Position numbers and translations under genes: made by a program. The notes under the pieces were generated by a model that was not told where the DNA came from, did not search any database, and worked only from the letters and a program-made list of their open reading frames with translations. A stretch of DNA of 64,000 nt from Curtobacterium citreum (GTDB taxonomy: Bacteria > Actinomycetota > Actinomycetes > Actinomycetales > Microbacteriaceae). Shown one piece after another: positions 53,142 through 64,000 of the stretch (positions within the stretch are counted from its first letter, which is position 1; every line of letters starts with the position of its first letter). The DNA lies in the NCBI RefSeq assembly GCF_006715175.1, contig NZ_VFMQ01000001.1, positions 1,860,001-1,924,000 of the forward strand. Direction: 5' to 3'.

Positions 53142-54605
53142 ATGTCCAGCACCACCGCACCCGACTCCCGGGAGCACAAGCGCACCTTCTTCGGGCAGCC
53201 GTTCGAGCTGTCCACACCGTTCGCGGTCGAGCTCTGGGAACGGTTCTCGTTCTACGGCATGCAGGGGATCGTCCTCCTGTACATGTACTACACGGCGTCG
53301 CAGGGCGGCCTCGGCATCAGCGAGGGCATCGCCACCGGCATCATGGGCGCCTACGGCGGCGCGGTGTACCTCTTCACCATCGCGGGGGCGTGGGTCGCCG
53401 ACCGGCTCGCGGGCGCGGACCGGACGCTGTTCGGCAGTGCGATCGTCGTGATGGCCGGGCACGTGGCACTGGCGCTCGTCCCGGGGGTCGCCGGGGTCGG
53501 GATCGGCCTGGTGCTCATCGCGCTCGGGTCCGGTGGCCTCAAGGCGACCGCGACCACCATCGTCGGCGGGCTGTACAGCCGCGACGACCCCCGGCGCGAC
53601 GCCGGCTTCTCGCTGTACTACCTCGGCGTGAACCTCGGCGCCTTCGCCGGCCCGCTGCTCACCGGGCTGCTACAGAGCACCCTCGGCTTCCACTTCGGCT
53701 TCGGACTCGCGGCGATCGGCATGGCGGCGGGGCTCGTGCAGTACGCGATCCGCCGTCCGAAGCTCCCGGACGCCGTCCGGCACGTCACGAACCCGGTCGA
53801 CCGTCGTCGGCTGCCCCTGCTCGGCGGGATCGTCGCCGTCGTGCTCGTGCTCGTCGTGGTGTCCGTCCTGACGGGGCTCCTGACCGTGCGGAACCTGCCG
53901 ACCGTCGTGGTCGCCGTCGTGGTCGTCGCGACGATCGCCTACTTCGTCGTGATCCTGTCGAGCGGACTCACCGCCGACGAGCGGTCCCGCGTCGTCGCCT
54001 TCATCCCGCTGTTCATCGCGAGCGCGGTGTTCTGGTCGCTGTACCAGCAGCAGTTCACCGTCGTCACGGTGTACTCCGACCAGCGCCTCGACCGGTCGTT
54101 CTTCGACTGGACGATGCCGGTCTCGTGGATCCAGTCGATCAACCCGGTGTTCATCATCGTGCTGTCCGGCGTCTTCGCGGCGATGTGGACGAAGCTCGGT
54201 GCCCGGCAGCCCTCGACCCCGACGAAGTTCGCGCTCGGCACGGGCATCATGGGCATCGCGTTCCTGCTGTTCCTGCCCTTCGTCGGCACCGGGGAGAACG
54301 GCACGCCGCTTGTGGCCCTCGTCGCGATCCTGCTCGTCTTCACGCTCGCCGAGCTGCTGCTCTCGCCGGTCGGCCAGTCCGTCGCGACGAAGCTCGCGCC
54401 GCCGAAGTTCCAGACGCAGATGGTCGCGCTGTTCTTCCTGTCGGTGTCGCTCGGCACCGCGGTGACCGGTGTCCTGTCGGCCTACTACGACCCGACGGAC
54501 GAGGCCCCGTACTTCACGGTGCTCGGCCTCGTCGCGGTCGTCGTGGGTGTCGTGCTGCTCCTGCTCGCGAAGCCGGTGCTGAAGGCCATGCGGGGCATCC
54601 GGTAA
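53142..54605 (+). CDS. POT-family proton-coupled di/tripeptide transporter
   Basis: A 487-residue major-facilitator protein. The proton-coupling ExxERFxxY motif appears as ELWERFSFYGM near residue 30. GSGGLKATATTIVGGLYSRD, GFSLYYLGVNLGAFAGPLL and FIASAVFWSLYQQQFTVV are the other POT signatures. About 14 helices are expected. The ATG at 53142 is preceded by GGACGG. It imports small peptides; a 35-residue peptide gene follows within 43 bp and may be co-transcribed. Confidence 0.9.
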   Translation: MSSTTAPDSREHKRTFFGQPFELSTPFAVELWERFSFYGMQGIVLLYMYYTASQGGLGISEGIATGIMGAYGGAVYLFTIAGAWVADRLAGADRTLFGSAIVVMAGHVALALVPGVAGVGIGLVLIALGSGGLKATATTIVGGLYSRDDPRRDAGFSLYYLGVNLGAFAGPLLTGLLQSTLGFHFGFGLAAIGMAAGLVQYAIRRPKLPDAVRHVTNPVDRRRLPLLGGIVAVVLVLVVVSVLTGLLTVRNLPTVVVAVVVVATIAYFVVILSSGLTADERSRVVAFIPLFIASAVFWSLYQQQFTVVTVYSDQRLDRSFFDWTMPVSWIQSINPVFIIVLSGVFAAMWTKLGARQPSTPTKFALGTGIMGIAFLLFLPFVGTGENGTPLVALVAILLVFTLAELLLSPVGQSVATKLAPPKFQTQMVALFFLSVSLGTAVTGVLSAYYDPTDEAPYFTVLGLVAVVVGVVLLLLAKPVLKAMRGIR

Positions 54606-54790: not shown

Positions 54791-55099
54791 TCACTCCGCC
54801 GGTTCGACCGGCACCAGTTGACGACCCAGGACGGTCGCGCGCTCGAACGGGCCGCGGCCGTCCTCGGTGTGTACGGGCTCGTCGAAGGCGACCACCCACG
54901 CGCGCTGGACGCCGCCGAGCTGGTTCCCGCCCGGCGCCACGACGACCCCGACGGGCTCGCCGACCCAGCGGTCCCCGCCGCGCTCCGACGGGACGACCCG
55001 GACGAGGGCGCCGATCCCGATGCCGCTCCCGCTGCCGTTGCGGCTCCCGTTGCCGGAGGCGTCGTCGGGCCGGGGGCGGGGAGGTCGTCGTCCGAACAC
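54791..55099 (-). CDS. Hypothetical protein downstream of jetC
   Basis: About 102 residues from the GTG at 55099. A basic start (GRRPPRPRPDD) and a Gly/Ser/Asn linker lead to GIGALVRVVPSERGGDRWVG, EPVGVVVAPGGNQLGGVQRA and WVVAFDEPVHTEDGRGPFER. The compact beta-rich pattern resembles small SH3-like domains, but no family is assigned. It occupies the place where jetD would be expected but is far too short and has no TOPRIM motif. The gap to jetC is 208 bp. Confidence 0.55.
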   Translation of the reverse strand: MFGRRPPRPRPDDASGNGSRNGSGSGIGIGALVRVVPSERGGDRWVGEPVGVVVAPGGNQLGGVQRAWVVAFDEPVHTEDGRGPFERATVLGRQLVPVEPAE

Positions 55100-55120
55100 C
55101 CGCTCACCGTACCGCGCGTC

Positions 55121-55172
55121 CCCGGACGCCCCGGACGCTCCGGACGCCCCGGACGCGCCCGGACGCGCCCGG
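55121..55172. repeat. 9-bp tandem repeat
   Basis: About six copies of CCCGGACGC, slightly varied, just upstream of the 102-residue gene. Simple GC-rich repeat, possibly variable in length. Confidence 0.65.
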
Positions 55173-55256
55173 AACCCGAGCGCGGCTCCGCGAGCGTGCA
55201 CGACGTGCCGCGTGCGCATCGTCCGGCGGGCGCGAAGTGTCGGCGGGGGACGGCGA

Positions 55257-55276
55257 GCGTGCCACATGTGGCACGC
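55257..55276. promoter_or_regulatory. 20-bp perfect palindrome after jetC
   Basis: Half-site GCGTGCCACA followed by TGTGGCACGC, no loop, 31 bp beyond the jetC stop. Protein-binding symmetry rather than a hairpin loop. It may control the 102-residue gene (start 55099) or mark the end of the jet operon. Confidence 0.55.
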
Positions 55277-55307
55277 GCGTCCGCCCCCTCGCCCCGCCGC
55301 GCCGCGC

Positions 55308-58300
55308 CTACGCCCGGGCGATCTCCGTGATGGACGAGTGGCCCGTGTCGGGGTGCTTCCGCATCGACAGCAGCCGCTCCATCGAGGGCTCGAGCGCCGT
55401 GACCTTGTCGAGCGGCGCACTCACCACGAGCTGGAACCCGAGCCGGAGCCACGCCGTCACGGCACGCCCCGCGAACTCCGAGTCCGCCTTGATGAACGCT
55501 TCGTCGAGGAACACCGGCGCGAACCGGGGCCGTGGACGGGTCTCGTCGCCGAGCTGGTAGCGCAGGGCCGCCCCGACGATGAACGCGACGAGCTCCTGCG
55601 TCTCGCCGCCGGACTTGTCGCCGAGCGAGGAGTACACGCCCAGGTCGTTGCCGTCCACGTCGTACCGGACGGCCGTGATCTCCATGTGCCGGCGGACGTC
55701 GAGCACCGCGTCGCGCTGCGTCGTGCGCCCACGGGACCCGCCCGGCTCCGGCCGGATGACGGCCATGAACCGGCGGAGCCGTCGGAAGCGGGTCTCGAGC
55801 ACGTCGTCGGTCAGCTCCGTGTCCACCGAGGCCGACAGGGCGCGGAGCTCCCGGCGGAACGCCGTGACGTCCTCGCGCGTGACCCGGCGGATCTGGATCT
55901 TCAGACGGTCCCGGTTCGCACCGAAGGGCAGCTCGCGGAGGATCTCGTTGACGGGTTCGAGCCGCTCCTCGATCTCGACGACCGCCCGGTCGAAGGCTCC
56001 GGCGAGCGGCACGAGGTCCTCGCCGCTCCACTGCGACAGCCGACGACGCCACTCGGTGCGTCGGGCGTGCAGCCCGGTGGCGACGATCTCCTCGAGGATC
56101 GCGTGGTAGTCCGGCCACGACGCGACGCCGGTGCCGAGGTTCGGGTCCGGCCACGCGTCCTGGTACCGCTGGAACGTCACGGTCAGGGCGTTCGAGGCCG
56201 CCGCAGCCCCGTCGAGCGCCTGGGTGAGCCGCTCCTCGAGTCGCCGGCGCAGGCGGCGGGTGGCGTCGTCGAAGCCGTCGATGCCCTCGGGGGCGCCGAC
56301 CTCCTCGAAGGTCTCGGCCAGCAGCTGCGCCTGCGCGTCGTCTGGCACGCTCCCCGGTGCCGAGTCGAAGCGCTCGAGGATGTCCGCGGCGGCGTCCTGC
56401 CCGTCGACGAGCACCGCGTGGCGCTCCTCGAGCCGGGTCACCTGCTGCCGGGCGCTCGCGCGTCGGTCCGCTGCCTCGTCCAGGGACCGGCGGAGACGGG
56501 CCACGGACTCGCGGAGCGTGCGGAGGCCGTCGTCCGCGGCGAGCAGGGCCTGGCGTTCGGCGTCGAGCCGCGCGAGCGACTCGTCCGCACCGGCGACGTC
56601 GATGCCGTCCCACGTCGCGTCCACCAAGTGCTCGTGGGCGGCGCGGACGACGTCGAGCGCGGCGAGGTCCTGGGCGACGTCCGTGCGGCGGGCCTCGAGG
56701 GTCGCGAGGTCCTGCGCGATCGCCGCGAGCTCCTGCTCGACCGCGGCCACGCGGGCCTCGTTCGTGAACCCGATGACGTTCGACTGCCGCCGGTCGCCAT
56801 GCGCGCCGCGCTTGCCGTCACGGAGCTGTCCGGACGGGGTGACCCGGCGGCCGCCGCCACCGAGCTCGGCGGCGGTGTCGACGCAGCGGGCGTCGATCCG
56901 GTCCGACTCGATGCGCTCCCGCACCCACGTGCTGAAGGGGGAGTCCTTGATGGTGAGCTTGCCGGAGACCATCGCGGGGTCGCCGTCGAGGTCGAGGTGC
57001 GGCCCGGTCGGGACGCCCTCGAACTGCACCCGGACGGGCAGCCGCAGGGCGTCGATCGCCTGGCTGAAGTCGGCGAGCCGGTCCTGGTCGACCAGGAGCG
57101 TGCGGGCGACCGGCGCCAGGACGGACTCGATCGCCGTGCGCCACTGCTCCTCGCCGGGGAGCACGTCGAGGAGCTCCGCGACGTACGGCAGCGACTCGGG
57201 GTCGATCCCGGCCGCGCGCGCCATCGCCAGGCGTGCCTCGTGCATCGGCAGCGGCATCGCACCCTGCCGGTGCTCGAGCGACTGCCGCTCCTGCCGCAGG
57301 GTCCGCTCGCGGTCGAGCAGCGGGTACTCCTCGCGGGTCAGCGCGTCGCGGCGCTGGTCGAGGGCGACGCGCTGCCGGGCGACCGAGCCGAGGAACTCCC
57401 GCGAGGTCCGCTGCGCCGCGCCGAACGCGGCCTCGGTGTCGAGCGTCAGCCCGAGCGGCGCGGTGCGCTCCTCGAACGTGGCCCGGGTCCGGGCGATGGT
57501 GTCCCGCTCGCGCGTGCCGCGGTCGATGCGGTCCTCGAGCTGCGCGAGCGCGTTGCCGCCCTGGTCGCGCAGGCGCCCCTCGGCCTCGCGGAGCTCGATC
57601 TCGACGGCGGCGTGCCGGGCCTCGGTCGCGGCGACGTCGGCGCGGGCCGCCGTGCGCTCGCGGGTGTTCCGGTCGACCTCGGCGTCGAGCAGGGCGCGCT
57701 TGCGCGAAGCCGTCCAGTGCGCGAAGGGGGAGACCTCGGCGCCGGGGGCGATGCCGTCCAGTGCCGCCGCGGCCGCGCGGGACCGTTCGATCTCGGCGTG
57801 CAGGTCGACGATCGGCTCGAGGATGCGGACCTTGCGCTCCTCGGTGTCCATCGCCTCGTACGCCTCGTCGAGGGCGGAGAAGTGCGCGAGCGCCCGGTCG
57901 GCGGCGTCGTACGTCCCAGGCGTCTCGAGCACCAGGGACTTGTACAGCGCGTCGACGGTCGGCAGGTGCTGGCCGGCCTGGATGCGGGCGAGCAGGCGCA
58001 TCGCCCGGTTGCCGCCGCCCGAGTCGCCGATCCCGAGCCGGGTCTGCAGCGTGTACGCGAGCTCCTGGTAGGTGTCCCGCACGACGAGCCCCGGCACCCG
58101 GCTGGTCAGCTCGAGGTGGTGGAACCGGGACGGCACGAACTCCTCGAGCCGGCGCAGGTCGAACGTGTCGTCGACCGTCGCCATGGTCATCTGGATGTCG
58201 CCGACGCCCCGCGCCCGCTTCGGCACGACGTAGGTCCGCAGCACGGTGAAGCGCCGTTCGTCGTCGTTCCGGAACGTCACCGCGACCGCGCCCCACGTGG

Positions 58301-58688
58301 TCTGGTCGTCCCCGCGCAGGTTGACGTCGCGCAGGGCGCCGGTCTCCGGGTCCCGTCGCGTGTCGACCTTGCCGCGCAGGTAGGTGAGCAGGTTGCGCTG
58401 GTCGGCGCTCCGGGCGCGCCCGGTGGTCGCGTCGTTCGACGCGCCGTTGAACGGCACGTCCGACGGCATCATGACCGCCAGGTACGCGTCCATCAGGGTC
58501 GACTTGCCGGTGCCGGAGGCGCCGGAGATCAGCGTCGCGGTGCCGGACAGCTCGACGTGCCGGTGGCCGTGGAAGCCGCCCCAGTTGACGACCTGCATCG
58601 ACTCAGCACGCCACTGCGCGACGGTGTCGAAGAGCGCGTCCATGCCCCAGGCGGGCACGCCGGCGGGGTCGGTCGCGGTGTCGGTCAT
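55308..58688 (-). CDS. jetC: JetC: SMC/MukB-like ATPase of a Wadjet-type complex
   Basis: A 1126-residue SMC-like protein. The Walker A GASGTGKS is at residues 56-63. Long coiled-coil arms (for example RTDVAQDLAALDVVRAAHEH) surround a hinge-like region near residues 500-600 (EEQWRTAIESVLAPVARTLL; RQSNVIGFTNEARV). The C-terminal head has the signature SGGETQELVAF at 1026 and Walker B PVFLDEAFIKAD near 1060. The ATG overlaps the jetB stop (ATGA). JetABC forms a loop-extruding complex that in Wadjet systems detects circular plasmids for JetD to cut. Confidence 0.88.
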   Translation of the reverse strand: MTDTATDPAGVPAWGMDALFDTVAQWRAESMQVVNWGGFHGHRHVELSGTATLISGASGTGKSTLMDAYLAVMMPSDVPFNGASNDATTGRARSADQRNLLTYLRGKVDTRRDPETGALRDVNLRGDDQTTWGAVAVTFRNDDERRFTVLRTYVVPKRARGVGDIQMTMATVDDTFDLRRLEEFVPSRFHHLELTSRVPGLVVRDTYQELAYTLQTRLGIGDSGGGNRAMRLLARIQAGQHLPTVDALYKSLVLETPGTYDAADRALAHFSALDEAYEAMDTEERKVRILEPIVDLHAEIERSRAAAAALDGIAPGAEVSPFAHWTASRKRALLDAEVDRNTRERTAARADVAATEARHAAVEIELREAEGRLRDQGGNALAQLEDRIDRGTRERDTIARTRATFEERTAPLGLTLDTEAAFGAAQRTSREFLGSVARQRVALDQRRDALTREEYPLLDRERTLRQERQSLEHRQGAMPLPMHEARLAMARAAGIDPESLPYVAELLDVLPGEEQWRTAIESVLAPVARTLLVDQDRLADFSQAIDALRLPVRVQFEGVPTGPHLDLDGDPAMVSGKLTIKDSPFSTWVRERIESDRIDARCVDTAAELGGGGRRVTPSGQLRDGKRGAHGDRRQSNVIGFTNEARVAAVEQELAAIAQDLATLEARRTDVAQDLAALDVVRAAHEHLVDATWDGIDVAGADESLARLDAERQALLAADDGLRTLRESVARLRRSLDEAADRRASARQQVTRLEERHAVLVDGQDAAADILERFDSAPGSVPDDAQAQLLAETFEEVGAPEGIDGFDDATRRLRRRLEERLTQALDGAAAASNALTVTFQRYQDAWPDPNLGTGVASWPDYHAILEEIVATGLHARRTEWRRRLSQWSGEDLVPLAGAFDRAVVEIEERLEPVNEILRELPFGANRDRLKIQIRRVTREDVTAFRRELRALSASVDTELTDDVLETRFRRLRRFMAVIRPEPGGSRGRTTQRDAVLDVRRHMEITAVRYDVDGNDLGVYSSLGDKSGGETQELVAFIVGAALRYQLGDETRPRPRFAPVFLDEAFIKADSEFAGRAVTAWLRLGFQLVVSAPLDKVTALEPSMERLLSMRKHPDTGHSSITEIARA

Positions 58689-59452
58689 GCGCTCGGCTCG
58701 CCTTCGTCGTCGGTGTCGGTGGGCTCGGCCGGGAGGCTCGTCCCGGCGCCGTCCGTCGGCTCGCCACCGGCGGCGGTCGCGTCGCGCAGCCAGTGCTCGA
58801 GCTCGCGGAGCTGCTCGAGGGGGAGGAGCACCTCGACGACGCTGGCCACCCGGAAGCGGTCCGGGTCGGAGGTCCTCACGAGGACCCGGGCGGTCACCAG
58901 GCGGTCGATCGCCTTCGCGACGCGGGACTCGTCCCGGGTGCGGTCGGTCGACGGCGGGAGGAACCCGGCGACGTGCCCGGTGATCTCGGACCGGTCGACG
59001 ACGACCTGGTCCAGGCCCGGGCGGGGGTCGGCGCGCAGCCGCATCCGCAGGTAGACGAGGACGATCGTCTCCTCGCGCGTGTACGGGACGTCGCGCAGCA
59101 GCGTCGGGAAGGCCCGGCGCTGGCTCTCCGAGCGGGCCTGGCGCTTCCAGGCGACCTCGCGGTCCCGGTCGACGTGCAGTTCGAGGAACAGGTCGTTCAG
59201 CCGCGAGCGGAGCTGGTGCTCGCCGTCCAGCACCGCGCGCCACTCGTCGGCGTGCGTGCGGGCGCTGACGTACGTGCTGCGGAGCAGCGCGACGAGCGCG
59301 CGCCGCTGCGGCTCGTCGAGCCGTCCCTCGTCGCCCTCGAAGAGGGCGAACGTGGTCTCGTCGCGTTCGTCGTCACCGGTCGTGTCGACGACGCCGAGGT
59401 CCGTCTCGTCGCGGTCCACGCTGTCGACGGGAGCCGTCGTCGTGTCGCTCAC
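58685..59452 (-). CDS. jetB: JetB: DUF4194 (KITE/MksE-like) subunit
   Basis: A 255-residue protein with an acidic N-terminus (ETDLGVVDTTGDDERDE). The winged-helix DUF4194 core contains EGRLDEPQRRALVALLRSTY, LFLELHVDRDREVAWKRQAR, LLRDVPYTREETIVLVYLRM and KAIDRLVTARVLVRTSDPDR. The GTG has AGGAGG upstream and overlaps the jetA stop (GTGA). It bridges the kleisin JetA and the ATPase JetC. An acidic C-terminal tail (PTDTDDEGEPSA) is present. Confidence 0.88.
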   Translation of the reverse strand: MSDTTTAPVDSVDRDETDLGVVDTTGDDERDETTFALFEGDEGRLDEPQRRALVALLRSTYVSARTHADEWRAVLDGEHQLRSRLNDLFLELHVDRDREVAWKRQARSESQRRAFPTLLRDVPYTREETIVLVYLRMRLRADPRPGLDQVVVDRSEITGHVAGFLPPSTDRTRDESRVAKAIDRLVTARVLVRTSDPDRFRVASVVEVLLPLEQLRELEHWLRDATAAGGEPTDGAGTSLPAEPTDTDDEGEPSA

Positions 59453-60975
59453 CGTGCCTCCTGGCCGTTGTCGTGGTCGTGCTGGGTGTCCGCCGGCGCG
59501 CCGGTCAGGGACGCCGTGGGCATGTGGAAGGTGACCGGCTCGCCGTCGGGACGCACCGTGCGGTGCGGGACCACGTGCGTGGCGGTCTCGAAGTCGTCGT
59601 TCCCGGTGAGCAGGTGCGCCAGGCCGAACAGCTCGACCGGCCGGCGCTGCTCCGGCGGGAGCGCGTGGAAGGCGTCGGCGCTGTCCGCGGCGTCGCGGAG
59701 CGCCGCGCGGAGTTCCGCCAGGAGCGGGCCGCCGTGCCGACGGAGGCTCTCGACGTCGAGTTCCTCGAAGACGTCGTCGTCGGGCTCCTCGATGGGCGGC
59801 GGGACGGCGTCGTTGTCCGGGTCGTGGAAGCGTTCGCGGAGCGTGCCGACCTCGGCCGTCGCGGGGAGCAGGCCGAGCGGGACGCGGTCGCGGGCGCTGC
59901 CCTGCTCGATCCACGACGCCAGGCCGCGGTTCACGGAGCGGAGCACGGCGTCGAGCTCGCGGTCCCGGACGACGTCGTGTGCCACGATCTGGTCGCGCAA
60001 CGTCGCGGTGAGCTGCCGGCGCTGGGCGAGGACGTCCTCGATGCCCTGGCGGAGGATGCCGACCGTGTTGCGGAAGGCCCGGCGCTCCCCGGACCCGAGC
60101 GTGTCCGCGAACGGGTGGGCCAGGATCGTGGCGATGTCGTCCCGGAGCCGCAGGAGCAGGGCGTCGTCGCGGAGGAGCTCGAACGCGCCCTCGAACGCGC
60201 GGCCCTCCGGCGTCGCCTGCATGAGGTCGTCCGTGCGGGCGAGGTAGTCGTCGAGGATCTCGCCGATCGGGCGCACCTCCTGCCGGAAGTCCTCGACGAT
60301 CGAGCGGTGCATCGCGGCGACCGCCTCCTCGACGCGCTTGAAGTCGCTCGGCAGCTGCCGGATCAGGTCGGAGATGTTCGTGTAGCCGTCGCGCATCCGG
60401 TGGTCGTCGACCGTGACGACCTCGTCGCCGTTCGCCAGGCGGTCCCGCTCGGCCTGCAGCTCGGCGATCTGCGCGTCGAGCCGTCGGACCTGCACGTCGG
60501 GGTCCGGTTCGGCGCGCGCCGCCCACCGGTGCACGGCGTCGACGATCATGGCGAGCCGGCTCTCGCTGATGAGGGCCCGGTCGGCGGCCAGTGCATCGAC
60601 CATGCTCAGGGCCTCGAGGGCGTGGCTCGTCAGGGAGTACTGCTCGTCGCCGTCGGCGGAGTTCGAGCGCACGAGCCACTGCGCCGCCACCCAGTCGCGG
60701 CAGAGCGCACGGCCGTTCGGACGCGCGGTGGTGTCCGTCGGCTCGCCCGAGGTCTGGTCGCTCGCGGGCACGCGCGCGCCCGTCGCCTGCAGGCGCGCGA
60801 CGTGCTCCTCGACCTGCAGGTGCATGCGGTCGGCGGGGACGTACTGGACGTCGCGGTCGAACACCGTCCGGAACACCGCGAGGACGGCGGCGCTCGTCGG
60901 GCGGGACATGAGCCGGAGCGTCGGGCGGTCGAGGACCGCACGGACGCGGGCGAACTCGAGGTCGACGTCGGTCAT
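59449..60975 (-). CDS. jetA: JetA: DUF3375 (kleisin/MksF-like) subunit
   Basis: A 508-residue DUF3375 protein. RVRAVLDRPTLRLMSRPTSA at the start, YSLTSHALEALSMVDAL, and the long helical middle (DGYTNISDLIRQLPSDFKRV; FRQEVRPIGEILDDYLAR; FEGAFELLRDDALLLRLRDD) are typical. GAAGGA precedes the ATG at 60975. It is the first gene of jetA-jetB-jetC, all overlapping. A 13-bp direct repeat lies 24 bp upstream. Confidence 0.88.
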   Translation of the reverse strand: MTDVDLEFARVRAVLDRPTLRLMSRPTSAAVLAVFRTVFDRDVQYVPADRMHLQVEEHVARLQATGARVPASDQTSGEPTDTTARPNGRALCRDWVAAQWLVRSNSADGDEQYSLTSHALEALSMVDALAADRALISESRLAMIVDAVHRWAARAEPDPDVQVRRLDAQIAELQAERDRLANGDEVVTVDDHRMRDGYTNISDLIRQLPSDFKRVEEAVAAMHRSIVEDFRQEVRPIGEILDDYLARTDDLMQATPEGRAFEGAFELLRDDALLLRLRDDIATILAHPFADTLGSGERRAFRNTVGILRQGIEDVLAQRRQLTATLRDQIVAHDVVRDRELDAVLRSVNRGLASWIEQGSARDRVPLGLLPATAEVGTLRERFHDPDNDAVPPPIEEPDDDVFEELDVESLRRHGGPLLAELRAALRDAADSADAFHALPPEQRRPVELFGLAHLLTGNDDFETATHVVPHRTVRPDGEPVTFHMPTASLTGAPADTQHDHDNGQEAR

Positions 60976-61057: not shown

Positions 61058-61090
61058 CTTGGGTGTTCTTCAGGCCCTGAATGGGCACTG

Positions 61091-61163
61091 TGGGCGATAC
61101 CAGACTCGAACTGATGACCTCTTCGGTGTGAACGAAGCGCGCTACCAACTGCGCCAATCGCCC
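61091..61163 (-). tRNA. tRNA-Val (anticodon CAC)
   Basis: A 73-base cloverleaf: acceptor GGGCGAT/ATCGCCC, anticodon arm CTTCG-TTCACAC-CGAAG with anticodon CAC, and T arm ATCAG-TTCGAGT-CTGGT. Discriminator A; CCA is not encoded. Confidence 0.93.
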
Positions 61164-61773: not shown

Positions 61774-61845
61774 GGGCGATTGGCGCAGCGGTAGCGCGCT
61801 TCCCTGACACGGAAGAGGTCACTGGTTCGATCCCAGTATCGCCCA
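61774..61845 (+). tRNA. tRNA-Val (anticodon GAC), probable integration site
   Basis: A 72-base cloverleaf: acceptor GGGCGAT/ATCGCCC, anticodon arm CTTCC-CTGACAC-GGAAG with anticodon GAC, T arm ACTGG-TTCGATC-CCAGT. CCA is encoded (to 61848). A tyrosine integrase gene lies 600 bp downstream, and tRNA 3' ends are classic attB sites for such enzymes. No second copy of the 3' end is seen before the window ends. Confidence 0.95.
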
Positions 61846-61850
61846 CCAGC

Positions 61851-61880
61851 CGAAAACCCCCGGAAATCCGGGGGTTTTCG
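61851..61880 (+). terminator. Intrinsic terminator of the tRNA cluster
   Basis: Perfect 13-bp arms CGAAAACCCCCGG / CCGGGGGTTTTCG with an AAAT loop, two bases after the encoded CCA. The T-rich right arm makes it a textbook bidirectional terminator. Confidence 0.85.
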
Positions 61881-62441
61881 TGTTTCTCCACGCGTTGCCC
61901 AAGGCTCGGATCAGGTGCCGTGGCACGGTTCTGGCACGATCAGCGAAAGCTTCCACCGCCCTACGTCTCGCCCGATGTCGGGTAGGCGACGCGTCAAGAG
62001 ATCCGGTCGATCGACGCGTCCTGATCGCACCATGTCGTCGATGCGCGACAGTCGGCGCGTGCCCGTGATGCGAGCGACGTCGCAAAGAGCCCGATGGAAT
62101 CAGGCCCTGGTGCTCGCAGCCGAGGCACGGCAGGTACTACCTGGCTCGACGCAAGGACGTCGCCGGGCGGCGGTCCGGTTCGGCAGGACAAGGCGTCCCC
62201 GACCTGATGCACGGGCTCTTCGGGTAGCGCTCGAGACGTGTCCTTCGAGTAAGGATGATCCGGGAAGTCGAACCCGACGCATGAGTCCTTCCCGCGCGCG
62301 CGTCGCTCGGTTCCGATGCTCCGCGGGCGGTGCGCAGCCGTGCTGTCAGCTACTGGAAGCAAGCATGAAAGCCGAATGCCGGCCTGTCGACGAATCGAAC
62401 AGGCCGGCACTCGGCGCGAAGGATGAAGGGGGAGAGGGCGG
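61881..62441. other. Non-coding left end of the integrated element
   Basis: No open frame here looks coding on either strand. It holds TGGCACG repeated (in GTGGCACGG and CTGGCACGA, near 61921-61939), which could be integrase arm-binding sites, a CCCGA-TG-TCGGG hairpin near 61973, and the integrase terminator at 62377. Being between tRNA-Val and the integrase, it is where an attL site would be expected. Confidence 0.5.
62377..62409 (-). terminator. Terminator of the integrase gene
   Basis: Perfect 11-bp arms TGCCGGCCTGT / ACAGGCCGGCA with an 11-base loop, 33 bp after the integrase stop on the minus strand. Confidence 0.65.
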
Positions 62442-63584
62442 TCAGAGCCGGTCCGCGATGCCCGCTCCAGAGTCGAGGTCGCCGAGCTTGGTGACTAGCG
62501 GGTCGAAGTCGGCCGGGAAGAGTCCGGTGTAGACATCGAGCGTGATGCTCGGCTTGGCGTGACCGAGCATGCCCTGCACGAGGGGCACGGTGGCGCCCGC
62601 GGAAACCCCGAGGCTCGCGGCGGTGTGCCGCAGGTCGTGCGGGGTGAGCTTCGGGAAGTGCTGCACGACCGCTCCGCGCGCGAAGTTGCTCGTTGGCCAG
62701 CTTGCGATCGCACGCCGGACGGCTGGAGCGAAGACTCGACGCCGCCAGGTCGAGAGCCTGAGCATGCCGCCCCCCGGCCCGGTGAAGACGAGGTCGTGTG
62801 CCTCACGCCCTGCCGAGCGTCGTCGGAGCGGCTCCATGACCTGCGGCACTCCCGGAACCTGTCGAGCCTTGCCGTTCTTGGGCGGACCGAGCACGAGCTC
62901 GCCCCTGACCTCGGTCGCGGACCTGCGGACGTGCACGACGTTGTTCGCGAAGTCGAGGTCGGCGAACGTGAGAGCCGCGGCTTCGCCGAACCGCAGTCCT
63001 GAGAACGCCAGGAAGGCGATGAGCATCCGGTCGCGCTCCTGCGCTTCGTCGAGGAGGTGCGCGACCTGCGGGGCGCTGAGGTAACCGTGCTCGCGCGTCA
63101 CCACCGTGGGCAGCTTGACTCCTCGCGCCGGGTTCCCGGTGTGTAGGCCCTGCTCGACACACTCCTCGAGGACGCCCCCTAGGATCTGGTGCGCCTTCTG
63201 GATCGTTTGCGCACCGGCGCCGGCGGCGTGGATGGACTCCACCCAGGCTCTCACCGACTTCTTCGTGAGCGCCTCCAGGGACGTCTCGCTCCAGTACGGC
63301 GTGATCCACTTGCCCGCAACGGCCGCACGGTTCGCGACCGTGGTAGCGGCGAGCGTCGCGCGTCGAGCGAGGAACTCGTCGATGAACGGGCCGAGCTTCT
63401 GCGACAGGTCGGACTGAGTGCGGTAGTTCGGCTTGCTCATTGCGATGAGGTTCGCCGCGGACCAGACCTTCGCGTCACGCTTGGTCCGAAACCCACGCTT
63501 CCGCGTCCTTCCGCCGTCCGGCTTCGTGTACCCGACCTCGAACCGCTTGCCCTTCGCCGTCTCGTATTCACGGATCGTGGCCAT
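62442..63584 (-). CDS. Tyrosine-family site-specific integrase
   Basis: A 380-residue phage/ICE-type integrase. An N-terminal AP2-like arm-binding domain (EYETAKGKRFEVGYTKPDGG) and a SAM-like core-binding domain (about residues 60-150) precede the catalytic domain. Its tetrad includes Arg in FSGLRFGEAAAL, His and Arg in LTPHDLRHTAASLGVS, and His and Tyr in MLGHAKPSITLDVYTGLF. The ATG overlaps the stop of the small HTH gene (TGATG), so the pair is co-expressed. It should integrate the element next to tRNA-Val. Confidence 0.92.
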   Translation of the reverse strand: MATIREYETAKGKRFEVGYTKPDGGRTRKRGFRTKRDAKVWSAANLIAMSKPNYRTQSDLSQKLGPFIDEFLARRATLAATTVANRAAVAGKWITPYWSETSLEALTKKSVRAWVESIHAAGAGAQTIQKAHQILGGVLEECVEQGLHTGNPARGVKLPTVVTREHGYLSAPQVAHLLDEAQERDRMLIAFLAFSGLRFGEAAALTFADLDFANNVVHVRRSATEVRGELVLGPPKNGKARQVPGVPQVMEPLRRRSAGREAHDLVFTGPGGGMLRLSTWRRRVFAPAVRRAIASWPTSNFARGAVVQHFPKLTPHDLRHTAASLGVSAGATVPLVQGMLGHAKPSITLDVYTGLFPADFDPLVTKLGDLDSGAGIADRL

Positions 63585-63835
63585 CAGGCAGCCACTCCGT
63601 TGTGCGATACGCGCGTCTGCTCGACATAGTCGAGCAGGTCACCGAGGCGATAGGCCACGGAGCGGCCGACCTTGATGTACGCGGGACCGCGGCGGAGGTA
63701 GCGCCGCTGGGCGAGCGTCCCGACGGACGTGAGGAGGAACGATGCGGCTTCAGCCGGTTTGAGGAGAGCCGCATACTTCTGGGTGAGCTCGCGGGTCTCC
63801 GATTCCGCGGTCAGGCGGCTCAAGGACGTGGGCAT
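63584..63835 (-). CDS. Small helix-turn-helix protein (excisionase/AlpA-like)
   Basis: About 83 residues from the ATG at 63835. KPAEAASFLLTSVGTLAQRR then YLRRGPAYIKVGRSVAYRLG and DLLDYVEQTRV is the MerR-like HTH_17 fold of excisionases and AlpA regulators. A longer in-frame start at 63928 would add 31 residues; neither has a strong ribosome site. It is coupled to the integrase and probably controls its direction. Beyond it, 63929-64000 shows no recognisable gene; the element continues past the window. Confidence 0.8.
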   Translation of the reverse strand: MPTSLSRLTAESETRELTQKYAALLKPAEAASFLLTSVGTLAQRRYLRRGPAYIKVGRSVAYRLGDLLDYVEQTRVSHNGVAA

Positions 63836-64000
63836 GGGCAGTTCGCTTTCGGTGCTGGACGTAACGGGCTTCGTCAGCTCGTTGCCTCCCGGAGTGGGTG
63901 ACACACCGTCTATGCGCGAACGCCACATCAGCCGTGGTGAAGGAGGCTAAGCCCAGGTCACGTCGGCGAGTCGTCCTCCGCTGATGGGACGGGCTCGGTT

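Follow-up and report, generated by a model that had tools for sequence, protein, structure and literature searches.

A jetABC operon without jetD in Curtobacterium that may encode an auxiliary chromosomal loop extruder

Introduction

The current view of Wadjet is that JetABC reels in DNA until the two motors of the dimer of dimers meet on a small circle, which JetD would then cut (available text of PMC10586767). Members of the Mks/Wadjet group that lack JetD have already been published, as the accessible parts of PMC10586767 and PMC7617805 indicate, and how defence machines and chromosome-folding machines interconvert is a question that has been raised for MukBEF, MksBEF and Wadjet (PMC10586767). 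Here we describe a jetABC operon without jetD from Curtobacterium citreum, a member of a genus in which this nuclease-free form is nearly fixed. The operon is in a stretch of 64,000 nucleotides (contig NZ_VFMQ01000001.1 of assembly GCF_006715175.1, positions 1,860,001 to 1,924,000), which is called the window below. On balance, we favour the view that Curtobacterium jetABC encodes a nuclease-free loop extruder of the Mks/Wadjet group whose most likely substrate is the chromosome, alongside Smc-ScpAB. In the open-licence literature we recognised no description of a JetD-less jetABC in Curtobacterium and no count of such losses in Actinomycetes. The recurrence pattern of jetD loss reported here may be new.

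Results

Three overlapping genes encode a kleisin, a KITE subunit and an intact SMC-like ATPase

The genes and the ATPase motifs, in coordinates of the window, are:

59449..60975, (-) strand: jetA (mksF), kleisin subunit, 508 amino acids; DUF3375 with E-value 1.4e-97 (Pfam), JetA1 with 608.6 bits (PADLOC)
58685..59452, (-) strand: jetB (mksE), KITE subunit, 255 amino acids; DUF4194 with E-value 5.4e-35, PADLOC JetB1
55308..58688, (-) strand: jetC (mksB), SMC-like ATPase, 1126 amino acids; AAA_29, SbcC_Walker_B with E-value 8.2e-22, MukB N-terminal domain; JetC1 with 1379.5 bits
58497..58526, (-) strand: Walker A of JetC, SGASGTGKST, residues 55-64, from the JetC alignment
55593..55613, (-) strand: ABC signature of JetC, SGGETQE, residues 1026-1032, from the JetC alignment
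55482..55517, (-) strand: Walker B stretch of JetC, PVFLDEAFIKAD, residues 1058-1069, from the JetC alignment

The GTG start of jetB overlaps the jetA stop by 4 bp (GTGA), and the ATG start of jetC overlaps the jetB stop by 4 bp (ATGA). Given these overlaps, jetA, jetB and jetC probably form one translationally coupled operon. The initial annotation, made from the letters of the DNA, had described overlapping jetABC genes with DUF3375, DUF4194 and an SMC-like ATPase with intact motifs, and Pfam, PADLOC (best models JetA1, JetB1 and JetC1) and our alignment all agree with it.

Pfam finds both halves of an SMC-type ATPase in JetC (AAA_29 and SbcC_Walker_B). The key residues GxxGxGKS, SGG and DE are invariant in 130/130 rows from jetD-less loci and 33/33 rows from jetD-bearing loci, a count made without L053, L093, L217 and L286. 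The closest solved structures are the JetC chains 8dk2 from Pseudomonas aeruginosa PA14 (E-value 1.1e-53) and 8as8 from Escherichia coli. The AlphaFold2 model of JetA had a pLDDT of 77 and a pTM of 0.37, with uncertain domain placement. In Foldseek its top matches were JetA chains of solved Wadjet complexes (E-value 2.1e-13, at a TM-score of just 0.32), and the match to MukF was weaker (E-value 1.4e-5).

jetD is missing from the operon and from the genome

The place where jetD begins in type I operons is occupied by a short gap:

55100..55307, no strand: gap of 208 bp behind jetC, without a jetD remnant

JetD_C (PF09983) had no match in the C. citreum genome, a single contig of 3,612,036 bases that is rated 100% complete; in a search over 14 control genomes, Corynebacterium glutamicum alone had a match. 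DUF3322 (PF11795) had one match in the C. citreum genome, at 22.2 bits against a cut-off of 22 and with an internal stop. The 126-residue open reading frame (ORF) at this site matched TatA_B_E above the cut-off of that family (21.7 bits), whereas its match to DUF3322 fell below the DUF3322 cut-off (20 bits). We therefore took this ORF to be TatB-like and rejected the DUF3322 match as a false positive. The absence of jetD that had been noted for the operon thus extends to the genome.

Regions behind jetC were also searched with a JetD profile whose seeds had been trimmed at the jetC stop, and with tblastn. Nothing significant was found in 134 jetD-less stretches, the window's included (at most 4 kb behind jetC; best profile E-value 1.5; zero tblastn matches at 0.01). 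At least 1.5 kb beyond jetC was present in 126 of these stretches. The other 8 were cut short, among them L053, whose genome (G337) has JetD_C on another contig. Weak profile matches behind jetC that could have been jetD relics arose with untrimmed seeds, which reached the 3' end of jetC out of frame; since the trimmed seeds matched nothing in the 134 stretches, we rejected these relics as an artefact. Full-length JetD proteins of relatives scored from 173 down to 106 bits with the profile, and the most diverged JetD near the Curtobacterium clade was still detected (106-121 bits).

jetABC is a core locus of the genus

We found jetA (DUF3375) in 63 of 66 Curtobacterium genomes and JetD_C in one. 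That single genome (G002) has two systems: a genus-type jetABC without jetD (L147), and a distant jetABC with an adjacent jetD (L148) that is 26-31% identical to the window's proteins. The genus-type locus lies at a fixed landmark:

61090..61163, (-) strand: tRNA-Val(cac), just upstream of jetA; same arrangement in 62/63 genus loci that have upstream sequence

This count excludes L148 and the truncated L219, and the exception (L095) shows no tRNA within the 1 kb inspected. On the other side, at least 1.5 kb beyond jetC was present in 58/63 genus loci. Ratios of nonsynonymous to synonymous change (dN/dS, NG86), measured between the window and 21 loci selected from the other 62 of the genus, were 0.12-0.31 for JetC, 0.15-0.36 for JetA and 0.26-0.37 for JetB. 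These ratios are low, indicating that the jetABC proteins are still in use. Near-fixation at one site and purifying selection together mark jetABC as part of the chromosomal core of the genus; its lack of jetD is not the product of a fresh deletion. A simple recent deletion of jetD, one of two outcomes that the initial annotation had named as fatal to its proposal, is ruled out, as related genus loci also lack jetD at this site; the other, a jetD gene elsewhere in the genome, was not borne out by the genome search above.

ScpA, which serves the housekeeping condensin as its kleisin, was found in 65/66 genus genomes, including that of C. citreum (G000:C1:1376082-1376750); the genome without a match (G057) is 88% complete. 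Co-occurrence with Smc-ScpAB was judged from ScpA alone.

Two further observations concern jetA. Of 20 genus genomes examined, there are 12 complete ones (L264-L274 and L276) in which the contig starts with a DnaA-like frame, recognised by its P-loop motif only, and jetA lies at 0.463-0.502 of the chromosome, opposite the origin; this is one conserved site and effectively a single observation, and the other 8 contigs start elsewhere. In addition, jetA is split over several frames or contigs in G009 (L217, where jetC is split too), G064 (L218 and L219), G267 (L215) and G357 (L220), by assembly error or decay.

jetD has probably been lost repeatedly among relatives of the genus

JetD-less loci are common beyond Curtobacterium. 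In a sample of the family, DUF3375 was present in 71/299 genomes and JetD_C in 32/299, and 39 of the 71 had no JetD_C. In a sample of the order, DUF3375 was present in 171/396 genomes and JetD_C in 89/396: 85 genomes had both, 86 had jetA alone and 4 had JetD_C alone. The last four (G376, G489, G559 and G590) have a JetD without a JetA of this type. Calling jetABC matches "Wadjet" overstates plasmid defence, given that JetD_C is lacking from 86 of the 171 order-sample genomes with jetA.

Outside Curtobacterium, the fetched Microbacteriaceae loci whose JetC could be placed on a tree comprise 26 with jetD behind jetC and 38 without; a linked jetD is the ordinary arrangement in jetD-bearing relatives. 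Four genomes (G160, G198, G300 and G320) have a jetD-less locus and a JetABCD elsewhere, so that in these genomes a nuclease might act in trans. Relatives of JetC were found by tblastn in 7 of 72,556 plasmid records, all below 60% identity and none from Curtobacterium.

The JetC tree had 99 rows, 66 without jetD and 33 with it. Explaining the distribution of jetD on it takes a minimum of 12 changes of state, and well supported branches force 11 of them. If jetD was never regained, the tree implies 18 losses as drawn and 16 with weak branches collapsed; these counts are rough, as the tree was made by a quick method and has several long branches. A first tree had been made without L053, L093, L160, L198, L217-L219 and L221-L223 and with the genus thinned to 13 genus-type rows and L148; for the 99-row tree, further near-duplicates and L286 were also removed. 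Loci L283-L285, L287 and L288 were left unscored, as the stretches fetched for them gave no jetC.

Curtobacterium falls among relatives on this tree, some of which have jetD. For the 33 jetD-bearing loci, the JetD and JetC trees have 20 of 30 splits in common, including the split that separates the Curtobacterium clade's 11 jetD-bearing relatives from the rest. This agreement suggests that jetD was probably ancestral there and then lost, rather than repeatedly gained. Curtobacterium, g50 and two Microbacteriaceae loci (L340 and L341) form one jetD-less clade, and the loss in this clade is therefore probably older than the genus. Recent losses also seem to occur, since L177 and L178 are from the same genus and jetD is present in one genome and not in the other.

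In eight loci of family f12 from the order sample (L283-L288, L296 and L297), jetA and jetB are kilobases apart. jetC is in 3 of the 8 stretches (in part in L286, and in L296 and L297), and no JetD was found in them by the corrected tblastn. These loci represent a broken-up jet operon that is maintained across several genomes.

The N-terminus of JetB

An N-terminal motif of JetB, IFDR, has been reported as a JetD contact (accessible part of PMC10586767). We did not recognise this motif in the JetB sequences studied here, and it is unusable as a test. Most JetB rows, with and without jetD, keep a block similar to LFEGDEG; the exceptions are the g35/g55 group and, among jetD-bearing rows, some of divergent type. 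The jetD-less JetB proteins of L162 and L209-L214 (g35 and g55) have lost the N-terminal [WF]xGDxG-like block.

Neighbouring genes

Behind the gap that follows jetC there are two genes:

54791..55099, (-) strand: 102-codon ORF with a GTG start and its stop at 54791, a small beta-barrel protein of Curtobacterium type, probably outside the system
53142..54605, (+) strand: POT-family transporter (PF00854, E-value 1.9e-54), convergent neighbour and bystander

The order of gap, 102-residue gene and transporter is as initially annotated, in agreement with the coordinates and the PF00854 match. The transporter is near 55/63 genus loci, and 5 of the 8 misses are loci cut short.

The 102-residue protein had been put forward as a candidate replacement partner, and this proposal did not hold up. 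Of 59 genus loci with enough readable sequence, 58 have the ORF behind jetC and one (L114) does not; the distance from the end of the jetC frame to the first matched residue of the ORF ranges from 25 to 1456 bp. Its 47 database homologues are from Curtobacterium wherever an organism is named, and no copy of it was seen in the jetABC loci fetched from other genera. Weak relatives were present in 6 of 14 genomes of other genera that were searched, always away from that genome's jetA. AlphaFold2 predicts a small five-strand barrel with a disordered N-terminus (mean pLDDT 78). Foldseek gave nothing for this model at an E-value of 0.001 or below; the weak matches were Tudor, CAP-Gly, KOW and PsaE-like barrels. 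We saw no nuclease features in the protein. We rejected it as a new or replacement partner: it is most likely a bystander and unlikely to be a replacement nuclease. Among the flanking families listed (frames of at least 60 residues in at least 3 genera), none of 25 unites Curtobacterium with other jetD-less genera as a replacement effector might.

A putative integrative element of ~35.7 kb begins at tRNA-Val(gac), covering 61813-63928 and continuing beyond the window as far as coordinates 97463-97498 (window numbering), where 36 bp of the tRNA 3' end are repeated. It has a tyrosine integrase (62442-63584, (-) strand) and a small ORF (63584-63928, (-) strand) with a weak HTH_17 match below the cut-off. 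jetABC is outside this element, across the tRNA array from it. There were 0 matches in the window to a dif consensus.

Discussion

The initial annotation had offered two names for this locus, a nuclease-less Wadjet or an MksBEF-like condensin. JetA, JetB and JetC are in one operon, as in type I Wadjet, and the JetD nuclease (DUF3322 and the TOPRIM domain JetD_C) is missing. Because this nuclease defines the system, the label Wadjet should not be used for Curtobacterium jetABC. The second name is the better supported. Homologues of MksF, MksE and MksB with an intact ATPase are present, no MksG/JetD is in the operon or the genome, and the locus occurs beside Smc-ScpAB, as seen from ScpA. We did not find what would mark MukBEF proper, namely similarity to full-length MukB, MukE and MukF and the replacement of Smc-ScpAB.

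We propose that JetC dimers, with JetA as the kleisin and JetB as the KITE subunit, would work as a DNA motor powered by ATP. Two such motors colliding on a circle would not cleave it when JetD is missing; the complex would be an extruder without an endpoint cut. It would therefore most likely be retained for a second, auxiliary system of loop extrusion on chromosomal DNA, in organisation or segregation, like MksBEF of P. aeruginosa. The motor activity, the absence of cutting and the chromosomal role are inferred in this model.

Several observations weigh against this proposal. Two genus genomes (G042 and G043, both 99% complete) have neither jetA nor jetC, and because these genomes are near-complete, the complex is dispensable. 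A third genome without both genes (G065) is 73% complete. In G009 (L217; 65% completeness), the reading frames of jetA and jetC are broken, perhaps by assembly errors. JetB retains its N-terminal LFEGDEG block, and jetD-bearing relatives have the same or a similar form, so that loss of an interface could not be shown. Finally, MksBEFG of C. glutamicum, which has MksG, is without effect on chromosome folding according to the available text of PMC7083940.

The main rival explanation is plasmid control independent of a nuclease, in which JetABC would load on small circles, reel them in and silence or exclude them without cutting. Counting against this explanation, defence genes are rarely core loci that are inherited vertically. 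It is helped by the nature of the motor, which is of Wadjet type and has JetC and JetA of Wadjet systems as its closest solved relatives, and by MksBEFG of C. glutamicum, which acts on plasmids (PMC7083940, in the part available). We regard plasmid control as unlikely, and recruitment in trans of a nuclease encoded elsewhere as less likely again. There would be room for such a nuclease, since outside this locus the genome search covered just the two JetD domains. However, no flanking family among the 25 listed is common to Curtobacterium and other jetD-less genera, nothing in the 102-residue neighbour points to a nuclease, and jetD-bearing relatives have an ordinary linked jetD.

It is also conceivable that jetABC is a decaying Wadjet remnant on its way out, as the two near-complete congeners without it and the broken frames in G009 might suggest. 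We consider this very improbable in view of purifying selection, motifs intact in every jetD-less row and a single site in nearly all genus loci. Least credible of all is a functional Wadjet with a JetD that is elsewhere in the genome or too diverged for recognition. Profile searches are limited, and the scores of relatives' JetD do fall from 173 to 106 bits. Nevertheless, the complete single contig has no JetD_C match, the profile catches the most diverged nearby JetD, a clade-specific profile and tblastn gave no significant match in the 134 stretches, and just ~700 bp lie between jetC and the convergent transporter, which is too short for JetD. Thus, we prefer an auxiliary chromosomal loop extruder.

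More broadly, and tentatively, it is possible that in Actinomycetes Wadjet has shed its nuclease many times independently and that the bare motor has long been kept as a stable, vertically inherited chromosomal condensin. If so, the step from an immune system to a housekeeping machine would be frequent and repeatable, and close pairs with and without jetD exist to test it. One such pair, L177 and L178, allows a direct test of what losing the nuclease does to the motor and to chromosomes.

Comparison with known systems

Type I Wadjet, JetABCD (P. aeruginosa PA14 and E. coli; PDB 8dk2, 8as8 and 8q72), is like the Curtobacterium locus in its subunit families, in the order jetA-jetB-jetC and as the source of the best structure matches. 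In contrast, Curtobacterium has no JetD, and plasmid cleavage is not expected. MksBEFG of C. glutamicum is also an actinobacterial second condensin beside Smc-ScpAB, as described in the accessible parts of PMC7083940 and PMC10123090. It differs in that it has MksG and acts on plasmids, with chromosome folding unaffected (same sources). MksBEF of P. aeruginosa is from another phylum, and its chromosomal role has been shown, whereas that of Curtobacterium jetABC is proposed here; we liken the two without a sequence comparison. Like jetABC, MksBEF combines a kleisin, a KITE subunit and an SMC-like ATPase, has no nuclease and is found in a host that also has an Smc complex (available text of PMC7485682 and PMC10586767). 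MukBEF of E. coli is a member of the Wadjet group without MksG/JetD that folds the chromosome (PMC7617805). Only the N-terminal domain of MukB matches JetC, weakly (29.1 bits; 1qhl, E-value 5.6e-4), and MukBEF has replaced Smc-ScpAB in its hosts, whereas Curtobacterium keeps ScpA.

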